Positions 12,367-31,266 of a stretch of 64,000 bases of DNA are shown here, one piece after another. The position numbers and the translations under genes were made by a program. The stretch lies in the NCBI RefSeq assembly GCF_038024855.1, contig NZ_CP139089.1:3845518-3909517 (forward strand), written 5' to 3'. Every line of letters begins with the position of its first letter. Within the stretch, counting starts at the first letter, position 1. Under the pieces are notes generated by a model. It saw only the letters and a program-made list of their open reading frames with translations. It ran no database searches and had not been told where the DNA came from. Origin of the DNA: Methylocella tundrae (GTDB taxonomy: Bacteria > Pseudomonadota > Alphaproteobacteria > Rhizobiales > Beijerinckiaceae).

Positions 12367-12380
12367 TTGATGTGAATCAT
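12367..12380. promoter_or_regulatory. FNR/FixK-type box before the CBS-acs-pdh operon
   Basis: TTGAT-GTGA-ATCAT matches the FNR/FixK consensus TTGAT-N4-ATCAA at 9 of 10 positions. Its centre is about 130 bp upstream of the first start codon of the operon. Confidence 0.6.
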
Positions 12381-12517
12381 AGCCCTCGAACATTGAAGAG
12401 ACTATCAGCAATGCCCCTGCGCGCGTTCCGCAAGGCAGGCTGGGCAGCGGGCGAGACGGCCATTGCCGCGACGCGGCCATGACCAGGTGGAAAGAGGTCC
12501 GCCATGAAAGTAAAAAA

Positions 12518-12955
12518 ATGATGCACAATGGTGTTTCTCCGGACACAGCCGTCACGGCGCTGGCAAAAAAAATGCAACAATCTGATATCGGCGCTATTCC
12601 TGTCGGTGAAAACGATCGGCTCATTGGTATGGTGACCGACCGCGACATCACGGTGCGTGGCGCCATGAGCGGGAAGGATCTCGATAAGCTCACCGCTGGG
12701 GACGTGATGACTGCCGGCGTAATCTACTGCCGCGACAGCGAAACAGTGGATGAGGCGGCGCGGATAATGGAAAGCAAGCAGGTAAGACGGTTGCCCGTCA
12801 TCGATGCGAACAAGAGAATGGTTGGGATGATCAGCCTCGGTGATGTTTCGCATGCGGCCTCGCAGGAGCGACGAAGGCTGTCTCGGCCCATCACGCCTGA
12901 CCAAAAAGCTCCTGGCCAAGGGTCAATCGTGACCTTTATCTCAAGCGTATCCTGA
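12518..12955 (+). CDS. Two-CBS-domain protein
   Basis: Stand-alone pair of CBS domains (about residues 5-60 and 70-125), typical of small proteins that sense adenine nucleotides. Conserved motifs are [20 protein letters not shown] and [21 protein letters not shown]. The good ribosome site (AAAGAGG) serves an ATG at 12504 whose frame (MKVKK) stops after five codons. Its TGA overlaps the ATG at 12518, where this frame can start. One extra A in the A7 run (12512-12518) would join MKVKK directly to MMHNGVS, the usual N-terminus of the family. So the product may arise by re-initiation, by slippage, or the gene may be frameshifted. It is first in the acs-pdh-ACP operon. Confidence 0.85.
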
Positions 12956-12986
12956 AAACCAGAAAAACGCCGGCCTGGAGGAGCCA

Positions 12987-14744
12987 ATGGAATGGAAGGC
13001 TATTCGAAAGCGTTCAGAGGACTTTGCGGGCGCCAACCTTCAGGATTACGAAACTTCGGTTGCAACCTTCTCATGGTCGCAAGAACAAACGCTGCTTGGC
13101 GGGTTACCGCAGGGCGGTCTTAATATCGCTCATGAGGCGGTTGATCGGCATGTATTGGCCGGGCGCGGCGGAAAGCTCGCGCTACGCTGCATTGGCCGCG
13201 ACGATCGGGTTCAAGACTTCTCCTACGCTGATCTCCAGGCTGCGGCCAATCGATTCGCTAATGTCTTGGCGCGGTGGGGCGTGGGGAAAGGCGAGCGGGT
13301 CTTTTCGCTGCTTGGCCGGACGCCGGAGCTTTACATCGCCGCCCTCGGCACGCTCAAGAACGGCAGCGTGTTCTCGCCGCTGTTCTCGGCCTTCGGACCG
13401 GAGCCGATCAAAGCGCGCATGACGATCGGCGCCGCCAAGGCCCTTATCGTTTCCGAAACGTTCTACCGGCGCAAAATCGAGCCTATTCGCCACGAATTGA
13501 CGAGCCTCGGGCATGTCTTTCTGACCGATTGCCTGGACGATCCGCCCGCGGGCGCGACCGATCTTGCGGCCGACATGGCGGCGGCGTCGGATTCGTTTGA
13601 AACGGTTTTGACGGGCCCCGAGGACATGGCCCTCCTGCATTTCACCAGCGGAACAACCGGGCGACCAAAAGGCGCCGTGCACGTGCACCAATCCGTCGTC
13701 GCCCATCATGTGACGGGCAAGCTCGCGCTTGATCTCCATCCCGGCGACATCTTTTGGTGCACGGCTGATCCCGGCTGGGTGACGGGCACGTCTTACGGCA
13801 TCATTTCTCCGCTCACGAATGGCGCCACGCTGATCGTCGACCAGGCCGAATTCGAAGCCGAACGCTGGTACAGAATTCTTGAGAAGCAGAAAATCAATGT
13901 CTGGTACACAGCGCCGACCGCGATCCGCATGCTCATGAAAGCTGGCGCCGGCGTCGCTAAGCGGTTCGATTTGTCGAACTTGCGTTTCATGGCCAGCGTC
14001 GGCGAACCGCTCAACCCTGAGGCTGTCGTTTGGGGACTCGAAGCATTCGGGATGCCGTTCCACGACAATTGGTGGCAGACTGAGACCGGCGGCATCATGA
14101 TCGCCAATTACCGGTCCATGGACGTCAAGCCGGGATCGATGGGCAGGCCATTGCCTGGTGTGACGGCTTCGATCGTCGAACGGAAGCAAGGCGGGGAGAT
14201 CCAGGAGAGCGCGAAGCCAATGATCATGGGAGAGCTTGCGCTGCGTCCGGGCTGGCCCTCGATGATGCGCGCCTATCTGAACGAGGAGGAGCGTTACCGC
14301 AAATGTTTCGCCGGCGGCTGGTACCTAACCGGCGATCTCGCGATGCGCGACGACGAAGGCTATTATTGGTTTGTTGGCCGGGCCGATGACGTCATCAAGA
14401 GCGCAGGCCATCTCGTCGGCCCATTCGAGGTGGAAAGCGCCCTCATGGAACACGAGGCGGTCGCCGAGGCTGGCGTGATTGGAATCCCGGACGAGATTGC
14501 GGGGGAGGTCGTGAAAGCCTTTATCGCCTTGAAGGAAGGGGTTGAACCGACCGAGGGGTTGCGCAAGGAGCTGCTCGGCCACGCGCGCAAGCGCCTTGGT
14601 CCCGCGATCGCGCCAAAGGACATCGCTTTCCGCAAGAACCTGCCGAAGACGCGCAGCGGCAAGATCATGCGCCGGCTCTTGAAAGCGCGTGAATTGGGGC
14701 TGCCGGAGGGCGATCTGTCGACGCTTGAGAGCGAGGAGCAATGA
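12987..14744 (+). CDS. acsA: Acetate--CoA ligase (AMP-forming)
   Basis: ANL-superfamily enzyme of 585 residues converting acetate, ATP and CoA to acetyl-CoA. The P-loop is [15 protein letters not shown] (about residues 216-230). The acetyl-CoA-synthetase signature [10 protein letters not shown], the hinge YLTGD, and the C-terminal catalytic lysine context TRSGKIMRR are present. The length and N-terminus fit the Bacillus AcsA-type subgroup rather than the longer Acs. GGAGGA precedes the ATG. Its stop overlaps the next start by ATGA, so it is translationally coupled to the pyruvate-dehydrogenase-like genes. Together they give two acetyl-CoA-forming routes in one operon, probably under the upstream FNR-type box. 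Confidence 0.9.
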
Positions 14745-15724
14745 CCGATAAACCACGTTTGTCGCGGGCGCATGAGCTCGACCTCCTCAAGCACATGATC
14801 CGTATCCGCCGGTTTGAGGACAAATGCGCCGAGCTCTATACGCAGGAGAAGATTAGGGGCTTTCTCCATCTCTACGATGGAGAGGAGGCCGTCGCCGCCG
14901 GGGTCATTCCCGTGCTCGAGAAGCGCGATCGGGTTGTTTCTACCTATCGCGAGCATGGCCATGCGCTCGTGCGCGGCGTGTCGATGAAGGCTGCGCTCGC
15001 CGAGATGTACGGCAAGCAGGAGGGATGTAGCGGTGGCCGCGGAGGCTCAATGCACCTGTTCGACCGGGCGACTAATTTCTACGGAGGCAACGCCATTGTC
15101 GGGGGTGGGCTTCCAATGGCGGTCGGTCTCGCGCTGGCCGATCACATGCGCGGGGAGGACATTGTGACTGCCTGCTTCTTCGGCGACGGCGCCGTCGCGG
15201 AAGGCGAGTTTCATGAGAGCCTCAATTTAGCGATGCTCTGGACGCTCCCTGTGCTGTTCGTGTGCGAGAATAATCTCTACGCCATGGGAACGTCGCTGGC
15301 GCTCTCCGAATCGGAGACCGATCTGCACCTTAAGGCGGCAAGCTATCGGATCGCTGCCGAGGCGATCGATGGCATGGACGTGATCGCGGTCGAGGCCGCG
15401 GCGCGACGCGCGGTGGAGGCGGTGCGGCGAACAGGAAAGCCGTATTTTCTCGAATGCCACACCTACCGGTTCCGCGGCCATTCAATGTTCGACAGCCAAC
15501 TCTACCGCGACAAGACTGAGGTCGAGGCCTGGCGGCAAAAGGGGCCGATCGTGCGGTTCAGCGGCTGGCTCGAGGCAAATCACATGATCCACCCGGAGGA
15601 TATGGCGCTGATCGAAGCTGAGGTCGCCGCCGAAATCGCCGAAGCCATTGCTTTCGCAGAGGCGGGAACATGGGAGCCGGTCGAACGCCTCAAGCGATTC
15701 ACTTATGCGGAAGGGACAGCCTGA
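14741..15724 (+). CDS. Pyruvate/acetoin dehydrogenase-type E1 alpha subunit
   Basis: TPP-dependent E1 alpha, 327 residues. The TPP motif runs from [13 protein letters not shown] to CENN (about residues 147-180). The phosphorylation-loop region [15 protein letters not shown] and the N-terminal [13 protein letters not shown] are typical. This alpha2beta2 E1 decarboxylates a 2-oxo acid and acetylates the lipoyl group of E2. The four-base overlap with acsA and the following E1 beta and E2 genes show one complex. Sequence style suits pyruvate or acetoin dehydrogenase; which substrate cannot be settled. No E3 gene follows. Confidence 0.9.
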
Positions 15725-15743
15725 CAGGCTGGCGACGGGCCTC

Positions 15744-16754
15744 ATGCCACAAAACGCAGATCGATCCGAACCTGTCGAGATCAGCTATCGAGAGGCCGTG
15801 CGCGCTGCGATCCGCGATGCGCTCACGCGCGATCAGCGCGTCTTCCTGATGGGCGAAGACGTTGGCCGTTACGGAGGTTGTTATGCGGTCACCAAGGGAC
15901 TTCAGGCGGAGTTCGGACCGGAGAGAATCCGTGACGCGCCGCTGTCGGAGTCGGGGTTTACGGGCGCCGGAATCGGCGCCGCAATGGCGGGCATGCGCCC
16001 GATTGTCGAATTGATGACCGTGAATTTCAGCCTGCTCGCGCTCGACCAGATTCTCAACTCCGCCGCTACCATTCGTCATATGTCCGGCAATCAATTCGGC
16101 GTGCCGCTGGTGATCAGGATGGCGACCGGCGCGGGCCGTCAGCTCGCCGCTCAGCACTCGCACAGTCTCGAAGGGTGGTACGCCCACATTCCAGGCATTA
16201 AAGTGCTCGCGCCGGCAACGCTCGAGGATGCGCGAGGCATGCTATGGACGGCCCTTCAGGATCCGGATCCCGTGCTGATCTTCGAAAACATCGTGCTTTA
16301 CAATATGAGCGGAAAGCTCGCGGCCGATGCCGGCCCGGTCGAGATCGACAAAGCCGCGGTGCGCCGCGTGGGGCGAGATATCTCTCTCATCACCTACGGC
16401 GGATCGCTGTGGAAGTGTCTCGAAGCCGCCCGCATGCTCGCGGATGAAAATATCGAGGCGGAAGTCATCGATCTGCGCAGCTTGCGGCCGCTGGATGATG
16501 TGACGATCATCGCATCGGTGAGCAAAACGCGGCGCGCCATCGTAGTCGATGAAGGCTGGCGCAGCGGCAGCATTTCGGCGGAAATTTGTACACGCGTCAT
16601 CGAGCAGGCGTTCTGGGAGCTCGATGCGCCGCCAGGCCGCGTCTGCAGCGAGGAGGCGCCGATTCCCTATCCGCGCCATCTTGAGCAGGCTGCAATCCCC
16701 CAGGCGCCGAAAATTGTCGCGGCGGTGAAATCCGCGCTTGTGCGCGAAAGGTGA
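15744..16754 (+). CDS. Pyruvate/acetoin dehydrogenase-type E1 beta subunit
   Basis: E1 beta, about 336 residues, with the transketolase pyrimidine-binding domain ([46 protein letters not shown]) and C-terminal domain ([27 protein letters not shown]). The ATG at 15744 is preferred; the in-frame ATG at 15705 overlaps the E1 alpha end. It sits between E1 alpha and E2 in the operon and completes the heterotetramer. Ends 4 bp before the E2 GTG start. Confidence 0.9.
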
Positions 16755-16758
16755 CGCC

Positions 16759-17958
16759 GTGGCCGAATTTCGCATGCCCTCGCTTGGCGCCGATATGGAG
16801 GCCGGAACGCTCGTCGAGTGGATGGTGAAGCCAGGAGATCGCGTCAAACGCGGCGAAGTCGTCGCCGTAGTGGAGACTCAGAAAGGGGCGATCGAGGTCG
16901 AAATTTTTGAGACTGGCGAGGTTGAGCAGATTCTGGTCGATCTTGGCGCCAAAGTGCCAGTCGGGACGGCGCTAGCGAAAATTCGTACGGAGCAGGAAGC
17001 CAGAGCCGGTATCTACGCAAAGCCTGCCGAAGCGGCTTCAGCGATGGCGCCTCCTGTAGCCGCACCCGCTGCGCAGCATCTGATTTTGCCTTCGACGGCC
17101 CCAAGGCCGGCCCCTTTGGCGATCGATCGCATTCGCGCCTCACCTGCGGCGCGGCGGTTCGCTCAGACTCGCGATCTGGACCTTGCAGCGATCACCGGCA
17201 GCGGTCCGGCGGGCGCCATCGTTCTTCGAGACGTCGAACGCCATCTCACCGCCGTAGCGACGCCGGTGGAGAAGAAGTCCGCGCCGGGCCTCAACCTTGA
17301 CGCTATGCGGGCGGCGATCGCCTCCGCCATGGCGCGATCGAAGCGTGAAATTCCACATTATTATCTTGAGCATCGGGTTGACGTAACGCGATGCGAGGCG
17401 TGGCTTGCGCAGGTCAATGCGGTCCGTTCGCCCGACAAAAGAGTGTTGATGGCCGCACCTGTTCTGAAGGCCGTTGCTTTGGCCGCGCGCCGCTTTCCCG
17501 CCTTCAACGGATTTTACCGGGATGGAAAATTCGAGTCGGCCTCCGGCGTCCATGTGGGAGTGGCGATCGCCATTCGCGGCGGCGGATTGGCGGCGCCGGC
17601 GATTCATGACGTCGACCAGCTCTCGTGCGACGAACTTATGGCGCGCACGCACGATTTAGTCCAACGCATGCGGACCGGTCGCATCCGCAGTTCGGAAATT
17701 GCCGAATCTACCATTACCGTTTCAAGTCTCGGCGAACGCGGCGTCGAAGCGCTCTTTGGCGTGATTTATCCACCCCAGGTAGCCGTCGTGGGCGTTGGGA
17801 AGATCTTACCGCGTCCCTGGATCGTGGAAGGCGCCGTCGCGGCGCGCTCCATCGTCAGCATCACTCTTTCGGGCGATCACAGGGCCAATGACGGCCATGG
17901 CGGAGCTTTGTTCCTGGCCGAAATAGGTAAACTGCTGCAAGAGCCGGAGAAATTATGA
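16759..17958 (+). CDS. Dihydrolipoamide acetyltransferase-type E2 component
   Basis: E2 core of a 2-oxo acid dehydrogenase complex, 399 residues. It has one lipoyl domain with the lysine in ETQKGAIEVEI (about residue 43), a peripheral-subunit-binding domain (RASPAARRFAQTRDLDL, GPAGAIVLRDVE), and a catalytic domain ending LSGDHRANDGHGGALF, with the His and Asp of the active site. GTG at 16759 follows AAAGGTG. The last four bases overlap the start of an acyl carrier protein gene, which is unusual. The catalytic-site wording (HRANDG rather than HRVVDG) is slightly divergent. E3 must come from elsewhere. Confidence 0.9.
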   Translation: MAEFRMPSLGADMEAGTLVEWMVKPGDRVKRGEVVAVVETQKGAIEVEIFETGEVEQILVDLGAKVPVGTALAKIRTEQEARAGIYAKPAEAASAMAPPVAAPAAQHLILPSTAPRPAPLAIDRIRASPAARRFAQTRDLDLAAITGSGPAGAIVLRDVERHLTAVATPVEKKSAPGLNLDAMRAAIASAMARSKREIPHYYLEHRVDVTRCEAWLAQVNAVRSPDKRVLMAAPVLKAVALAARRFPAFNGFYRDGKFESASGVHVGVAIAIRGGGLAAPAIHDVDQLSCDELMARTHDLVQRMRTGRIRSSEIAESTITVSSLGERGVEALFGVIYPPQVAVVGVGKILPRPWIVEGAVAARSIVSITLSGDHRANDGHGGALFLAEIGKLLQEPEKL

Positions 17959-18200
17959 AAGATCTCGATATCCGCACGGCATTAAAGGAGGAACTCGGAA
18001 ACATTGCGCCTGAAATCGATATAAATTCGGTTGATCCCGCCGCAGACCTGCGGGATGCTCTTGATATTGATTCTATTGATTTCCTTAATTTTATAACTGC
18101 GATCCACCATCGCCTCGAGATCGAGATACCGGAGATCGACTATCCAAGGCTCAGGACGTTGGATGGGGCCGTCAGTTTTCTCAAAGAGAAGCTTGGGTGA
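17955..18200 (+). CDS. Stand-alone acyl carrier protein
   Basis: An 81-residue acidic protein with one PP-binding domain. The phosphopantetheine attachment serine is Ser40 in ALDIDSIDFLNF (DSID in place of the usual DSL). The gene overlaps the E2 stop by ATGA, so it is made together with the dehydrogenase subunits. It is not the housekeeping AcpP, which has a different signature and fab neighbours. A tempting role is acceptor of acyl groups made by the E2 or the acetate-CoA ligase, but nothing in the sequence proves this. The coding region is visibly richer in A/T than its neighbours. Confidence 0.87.
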   Translation: MKDLDIRTALKEELGNIAPEIDINSVDPAADLRDALDIDSIDFLNFITAIHHRLEIEIPEIDYPRLRTLDGAVSFLKEKLG

Positions 18201-19319: not shown

Positions 19320-19363
19320 CCGTCACAGCGGGTAGCGGCCGGCCAGAAGCGCCGGAGGTGGCG

Positions 19364-19933
19364 TCAGCTCGCGATCGGGCTCGCTGCCTCAGCGTGGGAT
19401 ACAATGCCGCCGTATATGCCGTCAACGTGGCGCCCGTCCGACGATAGCGGAGCTGCAAGAACCTCGATCCACTGGCGACGGCCCGGCTTGACGCGAAGCT
19501 CGAACGCCGCGGCCAAAGGCTCGGCCGTTTCAGCGACCGTCTCAAAAAGCCGCCGCAGACGCGCGGTGATGCGCGGCGCGAGCATTTTCGAAAGCCTTTT
19601 TTCTTGGGACGCCAATCCCAGGAGACGACCTGCTTCAGGCCCGGTCCGACTCGCTTCCCATTCATTCGTCCCGTCAGATCGCTGGAACACGAAAATACCG
19701 GCCGCAATTTCGTCCGGTCCCTGAGCAAGATCGGCGGCGGTCGGCATGAGCCGGCTTCCACGCTTGTCGCGCCAGAATTCAAGCTCTAGCCTCAAAAGCG
19801 GGTCGCTCGCATCGGCGGCGTCAAGGCGATTGAAAAGGCGCGCGAGATGGGGCGGCGCCACGGCGAGCGTGGTCAAGTCATTCCCCCACGTGCTCGGTCT
19901 TCGGCAGCCATCCAACGAGCCACGGATCAACAT
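19364..19933 (-). CDS. PAS-domain-like protein
   Basis: Protein of 189 residues. The segment LEFWRDKRGSRLMPTAADL matches the entry motif of the alphaproteobacterial PAS_5-type family (YWxxKRGxRxxPxRxDI). It is followed by a PAS-like core with FVFQRSDGTNEWEASRTGPEAG and ending WIEVLAAPLSSDGRHVDGIYGGI. No output domain is attached. It is divergent from the COG2187/CapA pair across an 80-bp gap that holds a FixK-type box. A sensory or adaptor role is inferred; the ligand is unknown. Confidence 0.6.
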   Translation of the reverse strand: MLIRGSLDGCRRPSTWGNDLTTLAVAPPHLARLFNRLDAADASDPLLRLELEFWRDKRGSRLMPTAADLAQGPDEIAAGIFVFQRSDGTNEWEASRTGPEAGRLLGLASQEKRLSKMLAPRITARLRRLFETVAETAEPLAAAFELRVKPGRRQWIEVLAAPLSSDGRHVDGIYGGIVSHAEAASPIAS

Positions 19934-19956
19934 GAGGGCGCCGAAGACTCCTCTCC

Positions 19957-19970: not shown

Positions 19971-20012
19971 CACTTTACGCATCGAATTTATGATGAGTAA
20001 ATAGTCAGTCAG

Positions 20013-21059
20013 ATGATCGAGCGCAACGTGACGGATATTCCCGAGACCTCCCTCGAGGAGAAGGTCTGTTTCCTCAAGAGCCCAGCGGCCTACCGCCCTC
20101 AGCCGGCGAAGGTTGAGGTTGAGGAAACCCATATGTCTTGGGTCTTTCTGGCGGGAGATCGCGTTTATAAGTTGAAGAAGCCGGTCCGCCATTCCTTCCT
20201 CGACTTCGGGTCTATCGAAGCGCGTGAGAAGAACTGTCGCGAGGAGCTTCGACTCAATCGTCGTCTGGCGCAGGATATCTATCTCGGCGTGGCGCCGTTG
20301 ACTCGGAACGATAGTGGACGCCTCTCGATAGACGGGGAAGGGCGTCCAGTTGACTGGCTGGTCGTCATGCGACGCCTGCCACGGGATCGCATGCTCGACA
20401 GCGCCATTATCGCCCACACTCTCAGCGGCGCGGAAATAGCGTCCGTCGCTGAGCGGCTCGTCGGCTTCTACAAGCACGCTCAGCCCGCGGATCTCGCGCC
20501 GGCGGCCTATGTGGCGCAATTCATTGAAGAGCACGCCCGGAACGAAGCCGTGCTGACCGCTCCGCAATTCGACCTCGATGGTGGGCGCATCGAACGGCTT
20601 TTGGGTCTTGTCGAGGATACTTTGCGCAGCGGCCTCCTGGAGACGCGCGCCGAAAGCGGCCGGATCGTCGAGGGACACGGCGACCTGAGGCCGGAGCATG
20701 TCTGCCTCAGCCAACCGCCGGTCATTATTGACTGCCTGGAGTTCAATCGGCGGCTCCGCCTTGTCGATCCGGTGGATGAGCTCACCTATCTCGGCCTCGA
20801 ATGCAGCCGTCTGGGGGCGGACTGGGTAGAGCCAGTCCTCTTGAGTGTCTACGTTAAGAGTTCAGGCGACGACACGCCGTCGCCGGAGCTCGTTTCATTC
20901 TATCGGACCTACCGCGCCTGTTTGCGCGCCCGATTATCGCTCGTCCACATTCTGGAGCATGACCAGCGCAAGCCGAAGAAATGGTTGCCCCTGGCCAAAC
21001 AATATTTGGACATTGCCGCGTCGGCTAGCCTTAGCCCCGACGTTCCAGCGGCGCAATGA
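20013..21059 (+). CDS. COG2187-type aminoglycoside-phosphotransferase-like protein
   Basis: Protein of 348 residues. It starts with an ETHMSWVFLAGDRVYKLKKP segment (kinase-like N-lobe, Lys) and carries the catalytic loop EGHGDLRPEHVCL and the metal-binding IIDCLEFN (about residues 222-250). These are signatures of COG2187 proteins, whose substrate is unknown and which often occur in stress-related clusters. Its stop overlaps the CapA start by ATGA, so the two are translationally coupled. A FixK-type box lies about 50 bp upstream. Confidence 0.82.
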   Translation: MIERNVTDIPETSLEEKVCFLKSPAAYRPQPAKVEVEETHMSWVFLAGDRVYKLKKPVRHSFLDFGSIEAREKNCREELRLNRRLAQDIYLGVAPLTRNDSGRLSIDGEGRPVDWLVVMRRLPRDRMLDSAIIAHTLSGAEIASVAERLVGFYKHAQPADLAPAAYVAQFIEEHARNEAVLTAPQFDLDGGRIERLLGLVEDTLRSGLLETRAESGRIVEGHGDLRPEHVCLSQPPVIIDCLEFNRRLRLVDPVDELTYLGLECSRLGADWVEPVLLSVYVKSSGDDTPSPELVSFYRTYRACLRARLSLVHILEHDQRKPKKWLPLAKQYLDIAASASLSPDVPAAQ

Positions 21060-22264
21060 TCCGATCGCCTTCGTCAAAGGCGATCGAAAGCAGGGTATTG
21101 AGCATGAGCCCCTCGGCTCGGTCCACATTCGACTCCCCGGCGCCGCGCCAAGTCATTCGCGTCTTTCTCTGCGGCGACGTGATGACGGGGCGCGGCATCG
21201 ATCAGATCTTGCCGCATCCATGCGACCCTAGTCTGCATGAAGATTATGTGCATTCGGCAAATAGATATGTTCGTCTCGCCGAGCAGGCGAACGGATCGAT
21301 TCCAGCGCCGGTTGCGCCGTCCTATATCTGGGGCGCCGCTTTGGACGAGCTGAACCGGAAGGCACCCGACGCTCGCATCATCAATCTCGAAACCAGCATT
21401 ACGCGTAGCGACGCCTATGCTGAAAAAGGCATCAACTATCGAATGAGCCCGGAAAACGCCGCGTGCCTGCCTGCCGCCGGCGTCGATTGCTGCGCCCTCG
21501 GCAACAACCATGTCCTCGACTGGGGGCGCGCCGGACTGCTCGAAACATTGGCCACGCTCGAACGTTTGGGGATCAGGACCGCCGGAGCTGGCCGCGATCT
21601 GGCGCAAGCGCGCGCGCCGGCGATCCTCGAGATCGCCGGCAAAGGACGCTTGCTGGTATTTTCTTTCGCGTCCCCGACGAGCGGCGTCCCACGGAATTGG
21701 GGAGCGACTCCGGTGGCCGCTGGCGTGAACCTTCTCTCCGACTTTGCCGATGAAAGCGTCGCGCGGATCGCGGAACAGGTGGAGAGCGTACGGCGGCCAG
21801 GCGATCTGGTCATCGCGTTCATTCATTGGGGAGCAAATTGGGGATATGAGGTTCCAGAAGAGCAACGACGATTTGCGCGCGGCCTCATCGATCAGGCCAA
21901 TGTTTCTCTTGTCCACGGCCATTCCTCGCACCACGCGAAAGCCATCGAAATTTACATGGATCGACTGATCCTCTATGGCTGCGGCGACTTCCTGAACGAT
22001 TATGAGGGCATTCGCGGCTACGAGGAATTTCGCGGCGATCTCGCCGTGATGTATTTCGCCGGTTTCGATGCCTTGACCGGACATCTTGCGAGTCTCGAAC
22101 TCTCGGTGCTTCAAATCCGGCGTTTTCAGCTTGTTCCAGCATCGAGAGCTGATGTCGAGTGGATGCGCCGGACGCTCGATCGCGAAAGCTCTCCGTTCGG
22201 CGCGCGGGTCCGCCTGACGCCACACGGGAGACTGACGCTGCGCTGGCGTGATGCGGTCGGTTGA
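21056..22264 (+). CDS. CapA-family metallophosphatase-like protein
   Basis: Protein of 402 residues of the PGA_cap/CapA family. Conserved motifs are VFLCGDVMTGRGID, INLETSIT, CALGNNHVLDWG, IAFIHWGANWGYE and VHGHSSHHAK, which provide the metal-site Asp, Asn and His residues. There is no clear signal peptide, so it may be cytoplasmic. CapA proteins are linked to poly-gamma-glutamate handling in Bacillus, but in proteobacteria the function is open; no capB/capC is nearby. It is coupled to the COG2187 kinase-like gene. The start could also be the in-frame ATG at 21104. Confidence 0.85.
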   Translation: MIRSPSSKAIESRVLSMSPSARSTFDSPAPRQVIRVFLCGDVMTGRGIDQILPHPCDPSLHEDYVHSANRYVRLAEQANGSIPAPVAPSYIWGAALDELNRKAPDARIINLETSITRSDAYAEKGINYRMSPENAACLPAAGVDCCALGNNHVLDWGRAGLLETLATLERLGIRTAGAGRDLAQARAPAILEIAGKGRLLVFSFASPTSGVPRNWGATPVAAGVNLLSDFADESVARIAEQVESVRRPGDLVIAFIHWGANWGYEVPEEQRRFARGLIDQANVSLVHGHSSHHAKAIEIYMDRLILYGCGDFLNDYEGIRGYEEFRGDLAVMYFAGFDALTGHLASLELSVLQIRRFQLVPASRADVEWMRRTLDRESSPFGARVRLTPHGRLTLRWRDAVG

Positions 22265-22467
22265 CGTGCTGACATGCATATGGCGCGTTCTTGTGCCCAG
22301 CGCCGATCTCATGATTAACGCTTCACCGAGGAGCGCGATCAACGCCGCCGCCCGCCTTGCGTGCGAGAGCTGGCGCACCTCATAGGCTAGACGCGTGCGA
22401 CCGAGCTCAAGTTTAGCCGCAGCCGCATGACGGACCATACCGCCGAGTCCTCCACGAGAGCCGCGAC

Positions 22468-23021
22468 TCAAAACACAAGGAGATCTGTGAGCGGCTGGTC
22501 GTGGAGCCGGGCGATCGCCTCGGCCAGCAGCGGCGCAGCCGACGCGATGGCGAGCTTGTCTCGGACGGGACCAGCCGGAAGCCGGAAGGGAGGAACCGTA
22601 TCGGTCGTGATGATGCGCTCGATGGCCGGGTCGGCCAGCGTCTTCTCGGCGCCCGGCATGAAGAGGCCGTGCGCGATGCAGGCGATGATCCACCGCGCGC
22701 CGCGATCCACGCGCGGCATGAGCCGCGCGTACGAGCGTTCCGCCCGTGCTGACGAGATCGTCGACGATTATGCAGACGGCCCCCGCGACGTCGCAAGCGA
22801 AAAGGTCGCCGGAGACAACGCCGGCGCTGCGATGCTTTTCCGCGAATGCTTTGCCGACCGGCCGGCCCGTGGACGCCTCCAGCGCTTCGCGGAGCAAGTC
22901 GCCCGAGGAGCCGGCTGATCGCTTGGCCAAGCCCTTCGGTTCCCTTCAACGCGAACAAGCTCAGCCGGCCGCCAGATATAGGCCGAACATGCGAGGGCGA
23001 CCAGATGCGAGGTTTCGCCAT
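22468..23021 (-). pseudogene. Ribose-phosphate pyrophosphokinase remnant (deleted and frameshifted)
   Basis: Three pieces of a PRPP-synthetase-like protein lie in order but in different frames: an N-terminal bit GRLSLFALKGTEGLGQAISRL, then LLREALEASTGRP...VVSGDLFACDV with the PRPP motif VDDLVSTGGT, then ACIAHGLFMPGAEKTL...LLAEAIARLHDQP. About 190 codons that should separate pieces 1 and 2 are missing. A single-base shift near 22700-22712 separates pieces 2 and 3. The gene is dead. Intact homologs of this type usually accompany stress-island genes like those around it. It is divergent from ppsA. Confidence 0.78.
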
Positions 23022-23299
23022 CAGCCGCGTCTCCGTTTGGCGGGACCAATGCTCGCCTCGCATAAGCTTTGGTTTGTTGTATCGGCGCGCCTTGAGCGGC
23101 ATCAAGCCGCGCGGCTGCATCCGTCTCGACGTTGGTCCCTTGAGGCGCCGCCAGTCATGCTTCGTAAATGGCTCGCGCGGCTTCGTGCCGAGGACGTCGC
23201 CAGGCCGCAGGATTGTTCGTTCAGGCGGCATCGACTAACGTTCCAGGCAGCTGCCTGCAATTAAATTGCGGGCGTCCCAACACGATTGTCCCGCCACCG

Positions 23300-23369: not shown

Positions 23370-25790
23370 ATGACCAGCTCAAACTATATCCGCTGGTTTG
23401 AAGACCTCAGCGGCGCCGATGTCGCCATCGTCGGCGGCAAAACGGCCTCGCTCGGCGAGCTCTGCTCGGCGCTTTCGGGCCAGGGCGTCAAGGTTCCGCC
23501 GGGCTTCGCCGTCACCGCTGAGGCTTACCGCGACGCCCTCACGGCGGCGGGCGCCTCTGCGCCATTGCATCGCCTGCTCGACGGGCTGGACGTAAGCGAC
23601 GTCGATCTTTTGTCCGAAAGGGCGGCCGAGGCGCGCCGGATCGTCTACACAGCGACTGGAGGCGAGGAGCTTCGCCGTCAGATCGTCGCCGCCTACCGGG
23701 AGTTGAAGAAAAGATGCGGCGGGAGCCTCTCCGTCGCGGTGCGCAGTTCGGCGACGGCCGAGGATCTGCCGACGGCGAGCTTTGCCGGCCAGCATGAGAG
23801 CTATCTGAACGTGAGCGGCGAAGCCGCCGCGGTCGAGGCCTGCCGGCAGTGCTTCGCCTCGATCTTCACCGACCGCGCCATCACCTACCGCCTCGACAAT
23901 GGCTTCGATCATTTCAAGGTCGCCCTGTCCGTCGCCGTGATCAAAATGGTGCGTTCGGATGTCGGCTCGAGCGGCGTGATCTTCACCCTCGACACCGAGA
24001 CCGGATTCCGCGATGTGGTTTTCGTCACCGGCGGCTATGGCCTCGGTGAGAATATCGTCCAGGGCAGCATCGACCCGGATGAGTTTTATGTGCACAAGCC
24101 GACCTTCAAGAAAGGATTTCGGACGGTGCTCGCGCGCAGGATGGGCGCGAAGCAGCTCAGGATGATCTATGCGGAAAGCGCCGGCGCGGGCGCGAGAACC
24201 AGAAACAAGCCGACGTCGAAGGCGGAGCGGGAGCGTTTCTGCATTTCCGATGAGGACGTGCTCGCCCTGACCGGCTATGCGATCGCGATCGAGGATCACT
24301 ATTCGCTGAAAGCCGGCCGGCCTATGCCCATGGATATCGAATGGGCCAAGGATGGCAAGACCGGCGAGCTCTATATCGTTCAGGCCCGGCCGGAGACGGT
24401 GGCCTCGCGCCGCGCCGCCAATATTCTGCAGACTTATGCGATCAAGGGGTCGGGGCCGGTCATTGTCACCGGCCGCGCGGTCGGCGAGAAGATCGCGACC
24501 GGCATCGCCCGCGTCGTCTCCAGCGTTGAGGATCTCGACGCCTTCCGCCCTGGCGAGATTCTGGTGGCGGAAACCACGAGGCCCGACTGGCAGACGGTGA
24601 TGAAAACGGCCGCCGCCATCATCACCAACCGCGGCGGGCGCACCTGCCATGCGGCGATCGTGGCGCGCGAGGCCGGCGTGCCGGCCGTGGTCGGAACGGG
24701 CGATGCGACCTTGAAGCTCAAGACCGGCGCGACCGTGACAGTATCCTGCGCGGAAGGCGACGTCGGGCGGGTCTATGCGGGCGCCATTCCTTTCGAGGCC
24801 TCGGTTATCGACTTCAAGGACCTGCCGACGCCCAAGACGGAGGTCATGGTCAATCTGGGCGATCCCGACCTCGCCTTTCGCGCGGCCGAACTGCCATCGG
24901 CCGGCGTCGGTCTGGCGCGTATGGAATTCATCATCCAGCAGCACATTGGGATCCACCCCATGGCGCTTGCCGAGCCGGCCAAGGTCGTGTCGGCCAAGGC
25001 CAGGGCTGCGATCGCGCGCGCCGTCCGGGGTTATCCACGGCCGGCCGATTTCTTCATCGAACGCCTCTCCGAGGGCGTCGGGACCATCGCCGCGGCCTTT
25101 TATCCCCGCCCCGTGATTGTCCGCCTCTCGGACTTCAAGACGAATGAATACGCCGGGCTGATCGGCGGCGCCGGCTTTGAGCCGAAGGAAGACAATCCGA
25201 TGCTCGGCTTTCGAGGCGCCTCCCGCTACGATCATCCGGCCTATGCCGCGGGCTTTGCTCTTGAATGCGCGGCCTTGCGCCGCGTGCGCGAGGGAATGGG
25301 CCTCACAAATCTCAAGGTCATGGCGCCTTTCGTCCGGCGCGAGGAGGAAGCCAGACGGGTGCTGGCGGCATTGGAGCGCAATGGGCTGAAGCGCGGCGAG
25401 AACGGGCTCGAGGTCTTCGTCATGTGCGAGATCCCCAATAATGTCATCCGCATCGACGCCTTCGCCGAGCTGTTCGACGGTTTTTCCATCGGCTCCAATG
25501 ATTTGACGCAGCTCACCTTGGGCGTCGACCGGGACTCCGAGATCGTCGCCTTCGATTTCGACGAGCGCGACCCCGGCATGCTGGAGATGCTGCGTCTCGC
25601 CGTCACGGGCGCGAAGCGTAACGGGCGCCATGTCGGCATCTGCGGCGAGGCGCCTGCAAACTATCCCGAGATCGCCGCCGCTCTGGTCGGCTGGGGAATT
25701 GATTCCATCAGCGTCAATCCATCCAGCCTGATCGGCGCGCTGAAGGTGGTGGCGGATGCGGAACGCGCGGCGGCCGCAGCGCGGCCTTAG
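23370..25790 (+). CDS. ppsA: Phosphoenolpyruvate synthase
   Basis: Converts pyruvate, ATP and water to PEP, AMP and phosphate. The 806-residue protein has the ATP-grasp N-terminal domain (VRSSATAEDLPTASFAGQ, about residues 123-140), the phosphohistidine domain with catalytic His in GGRTCHAAIVARE (about residue 426), and the C-terminal PEP barrel (IGSNDLTQLTLGVDRD, with Cys in GICGEAP). The length is normal and no motif is lost. A GAGGAAG site precedes the ATG and a perfect FNR-type box lies upstream. It is followed at 18 bp by the PEBP gene. It links pyruvate to the TpiA/FBA/PfkB part of the island. Confidence 0.96.
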   Translation: MTSSNYIRWFEDLSGADVAIVGGKTASLGELCSALSGQGVKVPPGFAVTAEAYRDALTAAGASAPLHRLLDGLDVSDVDLLSERAAEARRIVYTATGGEELRRQIVAAYRELKKRCGGSLSVAVRSSATAEDLPTASFAGQHESYLNVSGEAAAVEACRQCFASIFTDRAITYRLDNGFDHFKVALSVAVIKMVRSDVGSSGVIFTLDTETGFRDVVFVTGGYGLGENIVQGSIDPDEFYVHKPTFKKGFRTVLARRMGAKQLRMIYAESAGAGARTRNKPTSKAERERFCISDEDVLALTGYAIAIEDHYSLKAGRPMPMDIEWAKDGKTGELYIVQARPETVASRRAANILQTYAIKGSGPVIVTGRAVGEKIATGIARVVSSVEDLDAFRPGEILVAETTRPDWQTVMKTAAAIITNRGGRTCHAAIVAREAGVPAVVGTGDATLKLKTGATVTVSCAEGDVGRVYAGAIPFEASVIDFKDLPTPKTEVMVNLGDPDLAFRAAELPSAGVGLARMEFIIQQHIGIHPMALAEPAKVVSAKARAAIARAVRGYPRPADFFIERLSEGVGTIAAAFYPRPVIVRLSDFKTNEYAGLIGGAGFEPKEDNPMLGFRGASRYDHPAYAAGFALECAALRRVREGMGLTNLKVMAPFVRREEEARRVLAALERNGLKRGENGLEVFVMCEIPNNVIRIDAFAELFDGFSIGSNDLTQLTLGVDRDSEIVAFDFDERDPGMLEMLRLAVTGAKRNGRHVGICGEAPANYPEIAAALVGWGIDSISVNPSSLIGALKVVADAERAAAAARP

Positions 25791-25808
25791 AGTGTGGGAG
25801 ACGAATCC

Positions 25809-26267
25809 ATGCAACTCAGATCGAGCGCCTTTTCCGACGGTAGCGCTATCCCGCGGCGTTTTACCTGTGCGGGCGAAGACGTGTCCCCGCCGCTCCATTG
25901 GACTGATGCGCCGGAAGGAACTCGCAGTTTTGTCCTTCTCTGCGACGACCCCGATGCTCCGGCAGGGATTTGGCGTCACTGGGCGGCTTACGATCTTCCT
26001 GCCGATCGTACAGCGCTCCCCGAGGGCGCTGGTCGGCCCGGAGGCGAGGATGGCTCAAAACAGGCGCTTAACGACTTCGGCCGATCGGATTACGGCGGCC
26101 CCTGCCCACCACGCGGCCATGGGCCGCATCATTACCATTTCCGGCTGCTTGCGCTCTCAATAGACCATCTGCCAGTGCGCAGGAATCCATCCTGCCGGGA
26201 TGTCGAACGAGAGGCGCGCAAACATCTTCTTGCGGAAACAATCCTCGTGGGAACGTACCAGCGATGA
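25809..26267 (+). CDS. YbhB/YbcL-family (PEBP) protein
   Basis: Phosphatidylethanolamine-binding-like protein of 152 residues. The anion-binding pocket motifs are LCDDPDAPAGIWRHWAAYDL and the GP-C-PPRGHGPHHYHFRLLAL stretch, as in bacterial YbhB. No signal peptide is seen, so it is likely cytoplasmic; the biological role of this group is unsettled. ATG at 25809 has GGGAGA upstream. It probably shares the ppsA transcript. Confidence 0.88.
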   Translation: MQLRSSAFSDGSAIPRRFTCAGEDVSPPLHWTDAPEGTRSFVLLCDDPDAPAGIWRHWAAYDLPADRTALPEGAGRPGGEDGSKQALNDFGRSDYGGPCPPRGHGPHHYHFRLLALSIDHLPVRRNPSCRDVEREARKHLLAETILVGTYQR

Positions 26268-26359
26268 TCAGTAAGATCGGTTTCGTTCACGAGGGTTTTC
26301 CAGGCTGTGTCGCCGGATTCGCTGCTTACGCGCCTTCCTGAAGATAGGGAACAGGATCG

Positions 26360-28075: not shown

Positions 28076-28287
28076 CTGGTCGCACCACGGACGCGGCGGC
28101 AGCAAAGACAAGTCCTTCAGCGCTACGACCTCAGATCGCGACCCGAACAATAAACCGCAAGCGAACGCGATAGCTGAGTCTCACAAGCTGCGCTCAAGCG
28201 CCCTCGCGTGGGATCGGCGCAATCTGCAACGAAATGGCTCGAACTCAACCGCCGCCGCGCCTTGCGTCTGTGGCGTTGCGAAGCGAT

Positions 28288-28848
28288 CTAACTGATCCAA
28301 CGAACTTCGGGCGTTTTTCGTGGAACGGCCGGCGCGGGAGTCCTTGGGCGACCGACGATGATCGGGGCCACAGGGACATGGGGTTCTGGAACGCCAATTG
28401 TTTCCTTTCCCTTCGGCGTGCCGAACCAGGCCTGCGCGAGCCCGATCCAGCAAGAGCCGAAGCCGGCACCGTGAGCCGCGAGCATGAGGTTTTCAGCTGC
28501 CAGCGCACAGTCCTCGACAATCCATGGTCCCTGCGCGATGGCCGAGATCACGATCAGGGTCGGCGCGTGGTAGAAGATGTGGAAGTCCGGGTCTGCTAGT
28601 CTTTCATAGAGATGCGCCGGCATGGGGGCCGTGGACCGGATGCTCAGCAAGTGAGCCTTGGCGTCGCGCGATATCTGATCGAGCAGCGATCGCTCCTGGA
28701 CCACGGCGAAAGACCAAGGTTGCTGATTGATTGCGTTCGGCGCGTGGATCGCCGCATCGACCAAACGATTGATCGCCTCTTGCGGTACGGCGTCAGGTAG
28801 ATAATCTCGGACGGAGCGTCGTCCAAAAATCGCCTCCATGAGTTCCAT
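28288..28848 (-). CDS. Nitroreductase family protein
   Basis: FMN-dependent oxidoreductase of about 186 residues. It has the N-terminal IFGRRSVRDYLPDAVP (phosphate-binding Arg/Ser), NAINQQPWSFAVV and the C-terminal GFGSCWIGLAQAWFGTPKGKE, typical of the family. Substrates are not predictable. It follows the HicA-like gene on the same strand after 66 bp and could be co-transcribed. The start is taken at 28848; ATG at 28839 is also possible. Confidence 0.88.
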   Translation of the reverse strand: MELMEAIFGRRSVRDYLPDAVPQEAINRLVDAAIHAPNAINQQPWSFAVVQERSLLDQISRDAKAHLLSIRSTAPMPAHLYERLADPDFHIFYHAPTLIVISAIAQGPWIVEDCALAAENLMLAAHGAGFGSCWIGLAQAWFGTPKGKETIGVPEPHVPVAPIIVGRPRTPAPAVPRKTPEVRWIS

Positions 28849-28914
28849 GATCGAATCCCGCTTTTGATTGCCAAAGATCAAACTAACCCCGATCTTCCTC
28901 TTCGCTTCAAGGCG

Positions 28915-29151
28915 TCAAACGCGAGACGCGGGACCGGGCAATTCATTCCAGTCGAGACCCAATTCGTCGACGACTGGTCGCACAATTCTCGAATCAAGCC
29001 GCTTCTTGGACCCCACCTCAGGGAGAACCGACCTTCGGTCGCCTCGGCGCACGGTCACATAAGCATGACCGTGTGCTCCGGCCGAGTCCTTGCCAGCCTC
29101 GAAGGTACAGCCGCGCTCCGATAGCCATTGGCGAAAGGTTTCGCTTTCCAT
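28915..29151 (-). CDS. HicA-like small protein (putative mRNA interferase fold)
   Basis: A 78-residue protein with a HicA-type pattern: LSERGCTFEAGKDSAGAHGHAYVTV, with the glycine and histidine (GHAY) at the place of the HicA catalytic His, then a basic strand and KKRLDSRIVRPVVDELGLDW. It has a strong GGGAGG ribosome site. No HicB antitoxin is visible on either side, so it is orphan or has another role. A frameshifted paralog lies at 37204-37405, with an almost identical C-terminus (DE-GLDWNELP-PASRV). Toxin activity is unproven. Confidence 0.65.
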   Translation of the reverse strand: MESETFRQWLSERGCTFEAGKDSAGAHGHAYVTVRRGDRRSVLPEVGSKKRLDSRIVRPVVDELGLDWNELPGPASRV

Positions 29152-29204
29152 GACAGCCTCCCATTCTTCCTGGACGACTGATACCCGGAATGAATGCAGC
29201 GGCC

Positions 29205-29218
29205 ATGATTTGGGTCAA
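29205..29218. promoter_or_regulatory. Weak FNR/FixK-type box between hicA-like gene and tpiA
   Basis: ATGAT-TTGG-GTCAA, 8 of 10 to consensus (TTGA-N6-TCAT on the other strand). Centred about 60 bp before the HicA-like start and 217 bp before tpiA. Supported mainly by analogy to the better boxes in the same island. Confidence 0.4.
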
Positions 29219-29428
29219 TATGGCAAAGCGGTGCGGGAGATCGACTTTCTCTCGGCATTCTGAGGCCTCAAGCCAAAATTGCCGCTTGCGACGCCAAAAG
29301 GACGCCGCCTAAACTCAGGCGTCAGACGAGCCTCGTCGTCCATTAAGTCACGCCGCCTTCGGTCTTGAAAACCCAGGCGACGGACGGCGTCTCCGTTTTG
29401 CCGTTCGCACCGGAACCGTGAGTAGAAC

Positions 29429-30178
29429 ATGCGGCCTTTGATCGCCGGAAACTGGAAGATGAACGGTTTATCGTCGCAGCTTGGCGAGATCGAGGCGATT
29501 GCCGCCTCTGTGACTGCGACGCCACCGTTTACTGACGTTCTGATCTGCCCGCCCTCGACTCTGATCGCGCGCGCCGCGCAGAGGGCCGCTGGCCGCATCG
29601 CCATCGGAGGGCAGGATTGCCACAAGGAAGCTGCCGGCGCCTTCACGGGGGGCATCAGCGCGGAAATGCTGAAGGATGCGGGCGCCTCTGCGGTCATTGT
29701 CGGACACTCGGAACGCCGCCAACATCATTGCGAGACCGATGCAATGGTGGCGGCGAAGGCGAAAGCCGCTTGGCGGGTAGGCATTCAGGCAATCATCTGC
29801 ATCGGCGAGACGGAACCACAGCGGCGGGACGGCAAGGCGTTGTCCGTATGCAGCGATCAAATTGCAGGAAGTGTTCCCGAAGGCATGGTTTCGTCCGCCA
29901 ACGCGATCGCCTATGAGCCGCTGTGGGCGATCGGAGCCGAGGGCGCGGCGACTCCGGAGGAGATCGCGGAAATGCTTACCCATATCCGCCACTGCCTCGT
30001 GGGGCGTTTTGGGGCGAAAGGGAAGACGATGCGCATCCTCTACGGCGGATCCGTCAACCCGTCCAACGCGCGTGAGATCCTCGCGCTGCCTGAAGTTGGC
30101 GGCGTGCTGGTCGGTCGCTCAAGCCTGAGGGCCGCGGATTTCGAAGCAATTTTCAGGGCTGTTTCTCCAAAAGCTTAG
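29429..30178 (+). CDS. tpiA: Triosephosphate isomerase
   Basis: TIM-barrel enzyme interconverting DHAP and glyceraldehyde-3-phosphate, 249 residues. It has AGNWKMNG (substrate-binding Asn/Lys), VGHSERRQHH (catalytic His), AYEPLWAIG (catalytic Glu) and YGGSVNPSN (phosphate binding). It is a second, island-borne type rather than part of a gap-pgk operon. It is convergent with fbaB, so isomerase and aldolase genes meet tail to tail. The housekeeping copy, if any, lies outside the window. Confidence 0.95.
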   Translation: MRPLIAGNWKMNGLSSQLGEIEAIAASVTATPPFTDVLICPPSTLIARAAQRAAGRIAIGGQDCHKEAAGAFTGGISAEMLKDAGASAVIVGHSERRQHHCETDAMVAAKAKAAWRVGIQAIICIGETEPQRRDGKALSVCSDQIAGSVPEGMVSSANAIAYEPLWAIGAEGAATPEEIAEMLTHIRHCLVGRFGAKGKTMRILYGGSVNPSNAREILALPEVGGVLVGRSSLRAADFEAIFRAVSPKA

Positions 30179-30238
30179 CCGCGCTTGGCGAGCGAGCTGC
30201 AAACTTTTGAAGTCAAGGCGACGAAATGCTTGGGAACA

Positions 30239-31177
30239 TTACGCGGTTAACCGGTCAGGCGTGTCTGCATAGATATCCATGACCGCGCCCAGCAACCGGA
30301 GCGCATCTTTCTTTGGACGCTGAAACGAGTTGCGGCCAATGATGGAGCCAAACCCGCCGCCAGCATGGATTGCGCGAACCTCATCGAGCAGTTTATCCTG
30401 ATCGGAGACCGCAGGGCCTCCGGAGAAAATGACTATGCGCCGACCGGCGAAGGCGCATTCGACAACATGGCGCACCCGCTCGGCAAGGGTTGCAATTGGA
30501 ACATGCAGCTGATCGTATACATTGCGGGCGGACTCTTGTTCAATATATGCGGTCGGCAACTTCACCTTGATGATGTGCGCCCCGAGCTGAGCCGCGATGT
30601 GCGCGGCGTAACCGACCACGTCGATCGCGGTTTCGCCTTCCTTGTCTAAATCTGATCCGCGCGGGTAGGACCATATGACAACTGCGAGCCCATATCGCTT
30701 TGCCTCTTCAGCATAGGCGCGGATCTGCCCAAACATTTCAAGCTGATGGGCCGAGCCTGGATAAATCGTGAAGCCGATCGCGCAGCAGCCGAGACGGCGC
30801 GCATCCTGTACGCTGGCGGTCAGCGCCTGATTCGGATCCTTCTCGTCCAGAAGCGCATTATTGTCGTTGCATTTCAAGATGAGCGGAATCTCGCCCGCGA
30901 AATCGCGAGCGCCTGCCTCCAGGAAGCCCAAAGGAGCGGCGTAGGCATTACAGCCCGCCTCGATCGCAAGTTCGAAGTGGTAATGCGGATTGTAGGCGAG
31001 TGGGTTTGATGCAAATGAGCGCGCCGGCCCATGCTCGAAGCCCTGGTCGACCGGCAGGATCACAAGCTTCCCTGTCCCCGCCAACCGACCGTGGTTCAAT
31101 AGGCGGGCCACGTTGGTCAGCGTCCCGACGTTATCGGCTCCGTACCAACTCAGAATCTCTCTTACTCTCGGCGTCAC
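30239..31177 (-). CDS. fbaB: Class I fructose-bisphosphate aldolase
   Basis: Schiff-base aldolase of the DhnA/FbaB type, 312 residues. It cleaves or makes fructose-1,6-bisphosphate. Motifs are LVILPVDQGFEHGP, LKCNDNNALLDE, VVIWSYPRG, the Schiff-base lysine context IIKVKLPT, and IFSGGP. The frame is open to a TTG at 31228, but the family N-terminus (TPRVREILSWYGADN) and a GGGAG site point to GTG at 31177. An FNR-type box lies about 82 bp upstream. It is downstream of pfkB with a 470-bp gap. Confidence 0.93.
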   Translation of the reverse strand: MTPRVREILSWYGADNVGTLTNVARLLNHGRLAGTGKLVILPVDQGFEHGPARSFASNPLAYNPHYHFELAIEAGCNAYAAPLGFLEAGARDFAGEIPLILKCNDNNALLDEKDPNQALTASVQDARRLGCCAIGFTIYPGSAHQLEMFGQIRAYAEEAKRYGLAVVIWSYPRGSDLDKEGETAIDVVGYAAHIAAQLGAHIIKVKLPTAYIEQESARNVYDQLHVPIATLAERVRHVVECAFAGRRIVIFSGGPAVSDQDKLLDEVRAIHAGGGFGSIIGRNSFQRPKKDALRLLGAVMDIYADTPDRLTA

Positions 31178-31252
31178 TGCTGCCGCTCTCCCATTGATTG
31201 TCCGGCGAGTTGGATAAGGCTGATACAAAAAAATCCTTTGCTATGAAATGCC

Positions 31253-31266
31253 ATGATTTCAATCAA
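31253..31266. promoter_or_regulatory. FNR/FixK-type box upstream of fbaB
   Basis: ATGAT-TTCA-ATCAA (TTGAT-TGAA-ATCAT on the fbaB strand) matches 9 of 10 consensus positions, centred about 82 bp before the fbaB start. Confidence 0.6.

Follow-up and report, generated by a model that had tools for sequence, protein, structure and literature searches.

Predicted FixK-type boxes before acetate, pyruvate and phosphoenolpyruvate operons of Methylocella tundrae and their probable place in a low-oxygen regulon

Described FixK and FNR regulons compared with the Methylocella tundrae island

The closest described counterpart of the system considered here is the FixLJ-FixK2 regulon of Bradyrhizobium diazoefficiens, with which a 64,000-nucleotide stretch of Methylocella tundrae DNA (NZ_CP139089.1, positions 3,845,518 to 3,909,517; the terminal 64 kb of the chromosomal contig, hereafter the window) has in common the same palindromic box, the activator class and relatives of FixL and FixJ encoded in the genome. 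The boxes of the window precede several operons of an island, among them one for acetate--CoA ligase (acs), pyruvate dehydrogenase (PDH) and an acyl carrier protein (ACP), and the phosphoenolpyruvate (PEP) synthase gene ppsA. We read them as predicted sites of a FixK-type activator, and the island as part of a genome-wide low-oxygen regulon, a reading to which we give, on comparative sequence evidence, a probability of roughly 80%.

In the portion of Table 2 of PMC9104804 considered here, the B. diazoefficiens fixK2 mutant shows reduced expression of ppsA (14-fold), a nitroreductase gene (95-fold), dnaJ (17-fold) and a CBS-domain gene (91-fold), and the ppsA, nitroreductase, dnaJ, USP and CBS genes, with drops of 14- to 95-fold, either own a FixK2 box or share one within their transcription unit. 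In the corresponding portion of Table 2 of PMC6515984, microoxia raises the expression of ppsA and of the genes for a pfkB-type kinase and an acetate symporter. Target types common to these published portions and to M. tundrae comprise ppsA, nitroreductase, dnaJ, CBS, USP, Hsp20, hemN, OmpW and an acetate symporter, whereas acs-PDH-ACP, COG2187/PGA_cap, fbaB and the FAAL fusion of the window are absent from them. The same portions do include blr1309, a gene named acs that encodes a propionyl-CoA synthetase; it is 3-fold up in microoxia and is unmarked as a FixK2 target (PMC9104804, PMC6515984). One genome of our comparison set (G153; L299/L300), which appears to be B. diazoefficiens or a close relative, carries boxes before nitroreductase and ppsA that agree in every base with the boxes published for blr4652 and blr4655 in the part of the material considered, and encodes relatives of the window ppsA (69%), nitroreductase (54%), DnaJ (48%), MerR-like (36%) and pfkB-type kinase (45%) genes. 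Given the identical boxes and the relatives of five window genes, the published Bradyrhizobium island and that of the window are probably related by descent.

The regulator of the Rhodobacterales is a [4Fe-4S] FNR. The core FnrL/FNR regulon of this order uses the same motif (PMC2908626), and many of its acs homologs are boxed in our data; the portion of Table 1 of that paper considered here is without acs-PDH-ACP. FnrL of Rhodobacter capsulatus raises pdhA and favours gluconeogenesis (PMC9603517, in the portion considered), a metabolic direction matching that expected from PDH and PEP synthase here; the effect on pdhA is indirect and may concern a different operon.

M. tundrae T4 respires N2O, grows anaerobically on pyruvate and oxidises methane under oxygen limitation, according to the part of PMC11102522 considered. 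A second, FixK-controlled set of enzymes for acetate, pyruvate and PEP, if real, would explain a switch in carbon flow when methane oxidation stalls.

Boxes in the window and the genome, and the regulators encoded

Sites were sought with a strict pattern (TTGAT-N4-ATCAA) and with a FixK form (TTGAY-N4-RTCAA), with 20 evenly spaced 20-kb stretches of this chromosome as controls (400 kb in all, 82 kb of it intergenic). Genes were called with our own codon-usage script, which leaves 13.9 kb of intergenic sequence in the window and misses short genes, such as those for CBS and PEBP and the hicA-like open reading frame (ORF). Each box listed in an earlier, sequence-only reading of this DNA was found where it had been placed. 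That at 23300-23313 matches the strict pattern exactly, those at 12367, 19957 and 31253 match it with one mismatch, the 19957 site being exact in the FixK form, and those at 29205 and 41067 have two mismatches to the strict and one to the FixK form. Further one-mismatch sites absent from that list lie at 6418 and 23092 (strict pattern) and at 28868 and 1784 (FixK form).

That the boxes exceed chance, as the sequence-only reading had proposed, is borne out by the counts. With at most one mismatch, the strict pattern has six sites in the 64-kb window, where shuffled sequence yields 1.59 on average and attained six in 1 of 100 cases, and all six sites are intergenic, while the controls contain none in intergenic and five in coding sequence (conditional binomial p = 9e-6 for the intergenic counts). 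For the FixK form with at most one mismatch, ten intergenic sites in the window (13.9 kb) compare with four in the controls (82 kb; p = 2e-6), whereas coding densities are similar at approximately 0.1 per kb (5 sites in 50 kb versus 34 in 318 kb). These p-values are post hoc, because the window owes its selection to its sites, and remain small after correction for the approximately 70 windows of such size in the genome. A matrix trained only on the acs promoter boxes of other species returned, at a score of at least 15, five intergenic sites in the window (12367, 19957, 23300, 29205 and 31253) and none in the intergenic control sequence. Lowering the cut-off lets the controls, roughly six times larger in sequence, catch up in number of intergenic sites (8 in the window versus 6 at a score of 12, 9 versus 12 at 10 and 12 versus 18 at 8), but not in density. 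Equal density throughout the genome, which had been named as grounds for abandoning the idea, was thus not found among the 20 control stretches.

Across the whole genome, 34 exact FixK-form sites could be identified, of which 22 have a called start no more than 300 bp away and 23 are intergenic, against the approximately 20% expected from the intergenic share of the controls (p about 4e-9). Behind exact sites are genes for hemN-like (L211), OmpW (L008), Hsp20, USP and a second CBS protein, a COG2187 paralog on C2 that is 47% identical to the window copy, a truncated second ppsA, ATP synthase beta, a norC-like cytochrome c, nitrate reductase alpha and a DUF485/sodium-solute symporter pair. The spread of exact sites suggests a regulon of the whole genome with an island rich in sites. 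The proposal that several island operons are preceded by boxes is retained, above all for CBS-acs-PDH-ACP, ppsA and COG2187; the regulon is not a property of the island. On C2 (L210:2001-4302), the FixK-form box lies 294 bp before the DUF485 and sodium-solute symporter genes, which are ActP-like by arrangement; this pair would bring acetate uptake into the regulon.

The genome encodes a FixK with a recognition helix (ETVSR) of the E-x-x-S-R type, whose best PDB match is FixK2 (4i2o; E 1.5e-45) and whose score against NF050806 is 224 bits, below the cut-off of 300. Its gene stands in one cluster with those for FixJ (NF006900, above cut-off), FixL and a lone receiver ORF. FixL scores 674 bits against its model, below the cut-off of 850, and its haem PAS domain aligns along its length with solved FixL domains, presumably from Bradyrhizobium (E below 1e-51), with conservation of the histidine and arginine which we take to contact haem and oxygen. 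Eight CRP-family proteins above the PF13545 (HTH_Crp_2) cut-off were read by eye, four weaker matches being left out, and an FNR-type [4Fe-4S] cysteine cluster was seen in none of these eight, unlike in the Rhodobacterales; FNR proper was therefore set aside as the regulator. Three further proteins are FtrB/DNR-like, with ETFSR helices; one of them, compared with solved structures and with profiles, scores below cut-off against FtrB models. Their genes adjoin a norC-like cytochrome c gene (named by eye) and the nitrate reductase alpha gene, with NnrS located beside the plasmid copy, and the regulator gene next to nitrate reductase alpha is split over two open frames (L009 and L086, around 10111). 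As none of the proteins read has the FNR cysteine cluster, FixK is the likely regulator and the FtrB/DNR-like proteins are possible co-owners of the boxes. Of the original description of the boxes as FNR/FixK-type, the FixK part stands, in that a FixK is encoded beside FixL and FixJ and the genome does not lack a homolog, and the FNR part is not supported among the eight proteins read.

Conservation of the boxes before acs, ppsA and COG2187

Relatives of the island acs number 282 in named genomes, from which the best 80 loci were kept; their record titles place 55 in the Alphaproteobacteria and 25 elsewhere. A FixK-form box with at most one mismatch is located within 250 bp upstream of acs in 46 of the 55 alphaproteobacterial homologs, at a median distance of 66 bp, many Rhodobacterales loci among them. 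When acs was instead delimited by gene clustering, with 300 bp upstream, boxes were found at 44/52 alphaproteobacterial loci (16 exact), while genes internal to the operon had boxes at 0 or 1 of 13 to 48 loci. In the 900 bp upstream of acs, taken over all 80 loci, 68 sites occur in 70.5 kb, versus 277 in the remaining 1,367 kb. A motif-blind search of the 55 alphaproteobacterial promoters, covering all 5-base palindromes with spacers of 0 to 12, returned as its top patterns ATTGA-N6 (31/55; expected 1.15) and TTGAT-N4 (30/55; expected 1.4), which are a single motif in two registers. Within 300 bp of the 25 non-alphaproteobacterial acs genes, exact sites occur in L122 and L137, the site in L190 is borderline at 299 bp, and L158 offers too little sequence.

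In the pooled boxed acs promoters, −10-like hexamers peak 21 nt past the box (8 of 46 with at least four matches; mean 2.26 versus approximately 1.2 at most other spacings), which would place the box centre near −41.5, the geometry of a class II activator. Spacing inside the window is mixed, being good at CBS-acs and the hicA-like ORF and poor at ppsA and COG2187.

The orthology test for the remaining genes used the prephenate dehydratase gene (48178-49041; the 29 best of its matches) as control. Of 29 further ppsA copies from the order, 10 are boxed (7 exact), and of those in the family 2/6; COG2187 has boxes before 5/10 orthologs, all of them exact, and fbaB before 0/7, versus 0/29 for the control gene. 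With identities of 50-55% for the majority, the set of 29 ppsA copies may include some that are not true orthologs. A 67% relative of the PEBP-family gene downstream of ppsA is preceded, at 58 bp, by an exact FixK-form box in Methylocapsa aurea (L117, site 15767), where an exact box of this form also precedes a CBS-like gene (named by eye).

At E 1e-150 or better, acs is matched in 5/119 genomes of the family, including the present one, and in 0/3 of the other genomes of the genus listed, suggesting that the operon is accessory. Copies above cut-off elsewhere in the genome exist for both PDH E1 alpha (C3:940684) and triosephosphate isomerase (C3:931219), and as such the island copies may represent low-oxygen isoenzymes. 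Clustering recovers an ACP homolog at 69/80 loci (48 alphaproteobacterial), versus 77/80 for acs. The operon is unnamed in the portions considered of the regulon lists of PMC2908626 and PMC4999443. In the open-licence literature, to which the search was confined and which leaves absence in print unproven, no paper on its control was found, and nothing was found on FixK in methanotrophs under hypoxia, on Methylocella FixL, or linking FixK with aldolase and triosephosphate isomerase. The predicted conserved control of acs-PDH-ACP is thus the new part, the FixLJ-FixK regulon itself being of a known type. A wider suggestion, which we put forward tentatively and rate at somewhat below even odds, is that acs, a PDH lacking an operon-encoded E3, and a dedicated ACP constitute a conserved low-oxygen module, an overlooked core member of the FNR/FixK regulon across the Alphaproteobacteria, in which the ACP would accept acetyl groups when oxygen is short and pass them on to storage or lipid synthesis instead of the tricarboxylic acid cycle. 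The regulatory half of this suggestion draws on the 46/55 loci, while the role of the ACP is speculation. The conserved box also points to acs-PDH-ACP as a target whose regulation by oxygen could be tested in many Alphaproteobacteria.

Among the best 80 loci, acs-PDH-ACP homologs also occur outside the Alphaproteobacteria, in Arthrobacter, Photobacterium, Chloroflexi and other records, and 39 loci have a longer, apparently fused E1 cluster. In a Hyphomicrobiaceae metagenome-assembled genome (L118:7394-11758), one exact and one mismatched box lie in the single intergenic region from which the neighbouring genes ppsA and acs diverge. The truncated second ppsA of M. tundrae (L085:11525-12303; C3:2826525) agrees with the window copy at 99% of its first 217 residues, and its own exact box lies 54 bp upstream. 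Between the PGA_cap and ppsA genes of the window, fragments at 22400-23240 resemble, by eye, a decayed ribose-phosphate pyrophosphokinase gene.

Proposed mechanism, alternatives and further genes of the island

The intergenic enrichment, the FixLJ-FixK cluster, the exact sites before genes of typical target families elsewhere in the genome, the conservation before acs, ppsA and COG2187 and the FixK2 targets of Bradyrhizobium support the low-oxygen regulon, although we infer every step from box to oxygen response in this M. tundrae strain. By analogy with the known FixLJ-FixK cascade, FixL, a haem PAS kinase, would sense low oxygen and act through FixJ to raise FixK, which would bind TTGAY-N4-RTCAA centred near −41.5 and, in the manner of class II activators, recruit RNA polymerase, the geometry being that of the pooled acs promoters of relatives. 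The response of the island would be a second, low-oxygen enzyme set for acetyl-CoA and PEP, comprising acetate--CoA ligase, PDH E1 and E2, ACP and PEP synthase. The CBS and COG2187/PGA_cap genes would be co-activated, as probably would the nitroreductase, hicA-like and FAAL-fusion genes.

Several observations weigh against this interpretation. Alanine occupies, in the FixK encoded here, the position of the redox cysteine of B. diazoefficiens FixK2 (chain position 183, serine in the crystallised variant), so that the redox layer is missing. Boxes are absent from 9/55 alphaproteobacterial acs promoters, 19/29 ppsA copies, 5/10 COG2187 orthologs and all seven fbaB orthologs, and four Beijerinckiaceae relatives with acs have a one-mismatch box (G020), a two-mismatch box (G033) or none (G010 and G017). 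Only two of the six ppsA copies in the family are boxed, the 53% ppsA of Methylocapsa aurea is without a box, and the ppsA box of the window lacks a good −10 hexamer at the expected spacing (2/6 matches). The boxes might also be bound by the FtrB/DNR-like proteins, whose recognition residues match those of FixK. Were these regulators, responding to nitric oxide or other nitrogen oxides, to use the boxes, the island would belong to a denitrification/nitric oxide regulon instead of an oxygen regulon, or to both. In keeping with this, there are three such genes (one split) with E-x-x-S-R helices, exact boxes lie between them and the norC-like and nitrate reductase alpha genes, NnrS adjoins the plasmid copy, and FNR, FixK and DNR of alphaproteobacteria bind very similar sequences (PMC2908626, in the portion considered). 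However, these regulators neighbour nitrogen-oxide genes and not the island, whose scanned genes are carbon and stress genes; nitrogen-oxide targets, by which a DNR/NnrR regulon is recognised, are absent from these scanned genes and present elsewhere in the genome. Furthermore, FixL and FixJ adjoin FixK, B. diazoefficiens genes of the island families depend on FixK2 at 0.5% oxygen, possibly with nitrate present (in the published portions considered), and acs boxes are kept in many loci of the Rhodobacterales, an order with a well-kept predicted FNR regulon (PMC2908626). We consider control by nitrogen oxides unlikely.

The odds are about even that the boxes work only in part, those of acs, ppsA and COG2187 being real and those of fbaB, 23092, 6418, 1784 and perhaps 29205 being chance occurrences or relics. 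Pointing this way are the unboxed fbaB orthologs, the 264 bp between the 23092 site and ppsA, the weak −10 matches of fbaB (3/6) and of 23092 and 6418 (2/6 each), and the 1.59 strict sites per window that shuffles yield. Conversely, the 82 kb of control intergenic sequence contains zero strict sites, the matrix scores of the fbaB (16.8) and 29205 (17.3) boxes exceed those of every control intergenic site, and the 29205 box is ideally spaced to a TATCAG in the direction of the hicA-like ORF. That all boxes are chance palindromes is, by comparison, extremely improbable: 11 of the 34 exact FixK-form sites do lie inside genes, but the 23 intergenic ones, together with the conservation and the −10 spacing in relatives, speak against it, and for the main boxes chance was rejected by the shuffles, the control stretches, the other-species matrix and the control gene.

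The features of the window are collected in Table 1. Upper glycolysis, which the sequence-only reading had placed under the control of the boxes, does not follow from them. The fbaB box, given its strong matrix score and the orthologs, represents a good sequence match that is not common to relatives, and fbaB was rejected as a conserved target. Similarly, tpiA was set aside as the target of the 29205 box, with a plus-strand distance of 210 bp and a best hexamer of 3/6, in favour of the better-fitting hicA-like ORF, in which Pfam finds nothing. The pfkB-type kinase gene (31647-32597) and that for DnaJ have no box in the window.

Table 1. Boxes and genes of the M. tundrae window discussed in the text (coordinates within the window).
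Feature	Coordinates	Strand	Evidence and remarks
FixK/FNR-type box TTGATGTGAATCAT	12367..12380	+	98 bp before CBS gene (12479); TATCAG 22 nt downstream
CBS-domain protein gene	12479..12955	+	Pfam CBS; true start may lie further in
Acetate--CoA ligase (acs)	12987..14744	+	NCBIfam NF003313 above cut-off
Pyruvate dehydrogenase E1 alpha, second genome copy	14741..15724	+	TIGR03182 above cut-off
Pyruvate dehydrogenase E1 beta	15705..16754	+	NF006667 above cut-off (longer frame 15648-16754)
2-Oxoacid dehydrogenase E2 (lipoyl, E3-binding and acyltransferase domains)	16759..17958	+	Pfam (longer frame 16738-17958)
Small acyl carrier protein	17955..18200	+	Pfam PP-binding
PAS-domain protein, divergent from COG2187	19364..19933	-	Pfam PAS_4
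Box TTGATCTGCGTCAA	19957..19970	+	Exact FixK form; 42 bp before COG2187 gene
COG2187-type (APH-like) gene	20013..21059	+	Weak Pfam APH below cut-off; COG number from the sequence-only reading
PGA_cap-type gene	21104..22264	+	Pfam PGA_cap (longer frame from 21056); probably co-transcribed with COG2187
Distal one-mismatch site, doubtful	23092..23105	+	264 bp before ppsA
Exact box TTGATCGTGATCAA	23300..23313	+	56 bp before ppsA
Phosphoenolpyruvate synthase (ppsA)	23370..25790	+	TIGR01418 above cut-off
PEBP-family protein after ppsA	25794..26267	+	Pfam PBP
Nitroreductase	28288..28848	-	Pfam; 54% to gene behind TTGATCGACATCAA in L299; relative of FixK2-dependent gene
Weak box TTGATCTTTGGCAA	28868..28881	-	19 bp before nitroreductase start; one mismatch to FixK form
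Small hicA-like ORF	28915..29151	-	Name from the sequence-only reading
Box TTGACCCAAATCAT	29205..29218	-	53 bp before hicA-like ORF; TATCAG 21 nt downstream
Triosephosphate isomerase (tpiA), second genome copy	29429..30178	+	Pfam TIM; lacks a convincing box
Class I fructose-bisphosphate aldolase (fbaB)	30239..31177	-	NF006704 above cut-off (longer frame to 31228)
Box TTGATTGAAATCAT	31253..31266	-	75 bp before fbaB (GTG 31177); 24 bp to TTG at 31228
ACP / AMP-ligase / acyltransferase fusion	38176..41067	-	Pfam; FAAL is the name from the sequence-only reading
Weak box TTAATTCAGGTCAA	41067..41080	-	At fusion gene start

In Methylocapsa aurea, an exact box lies 33 bp before a relative of the FAAL-fusion gene that is called there as two frames. 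The single match of an Rfam scan is a tRNA gene at 41399-41472 on the minus strand, just past the FAAL fusion, which possibly marks the edge of an accessory island.

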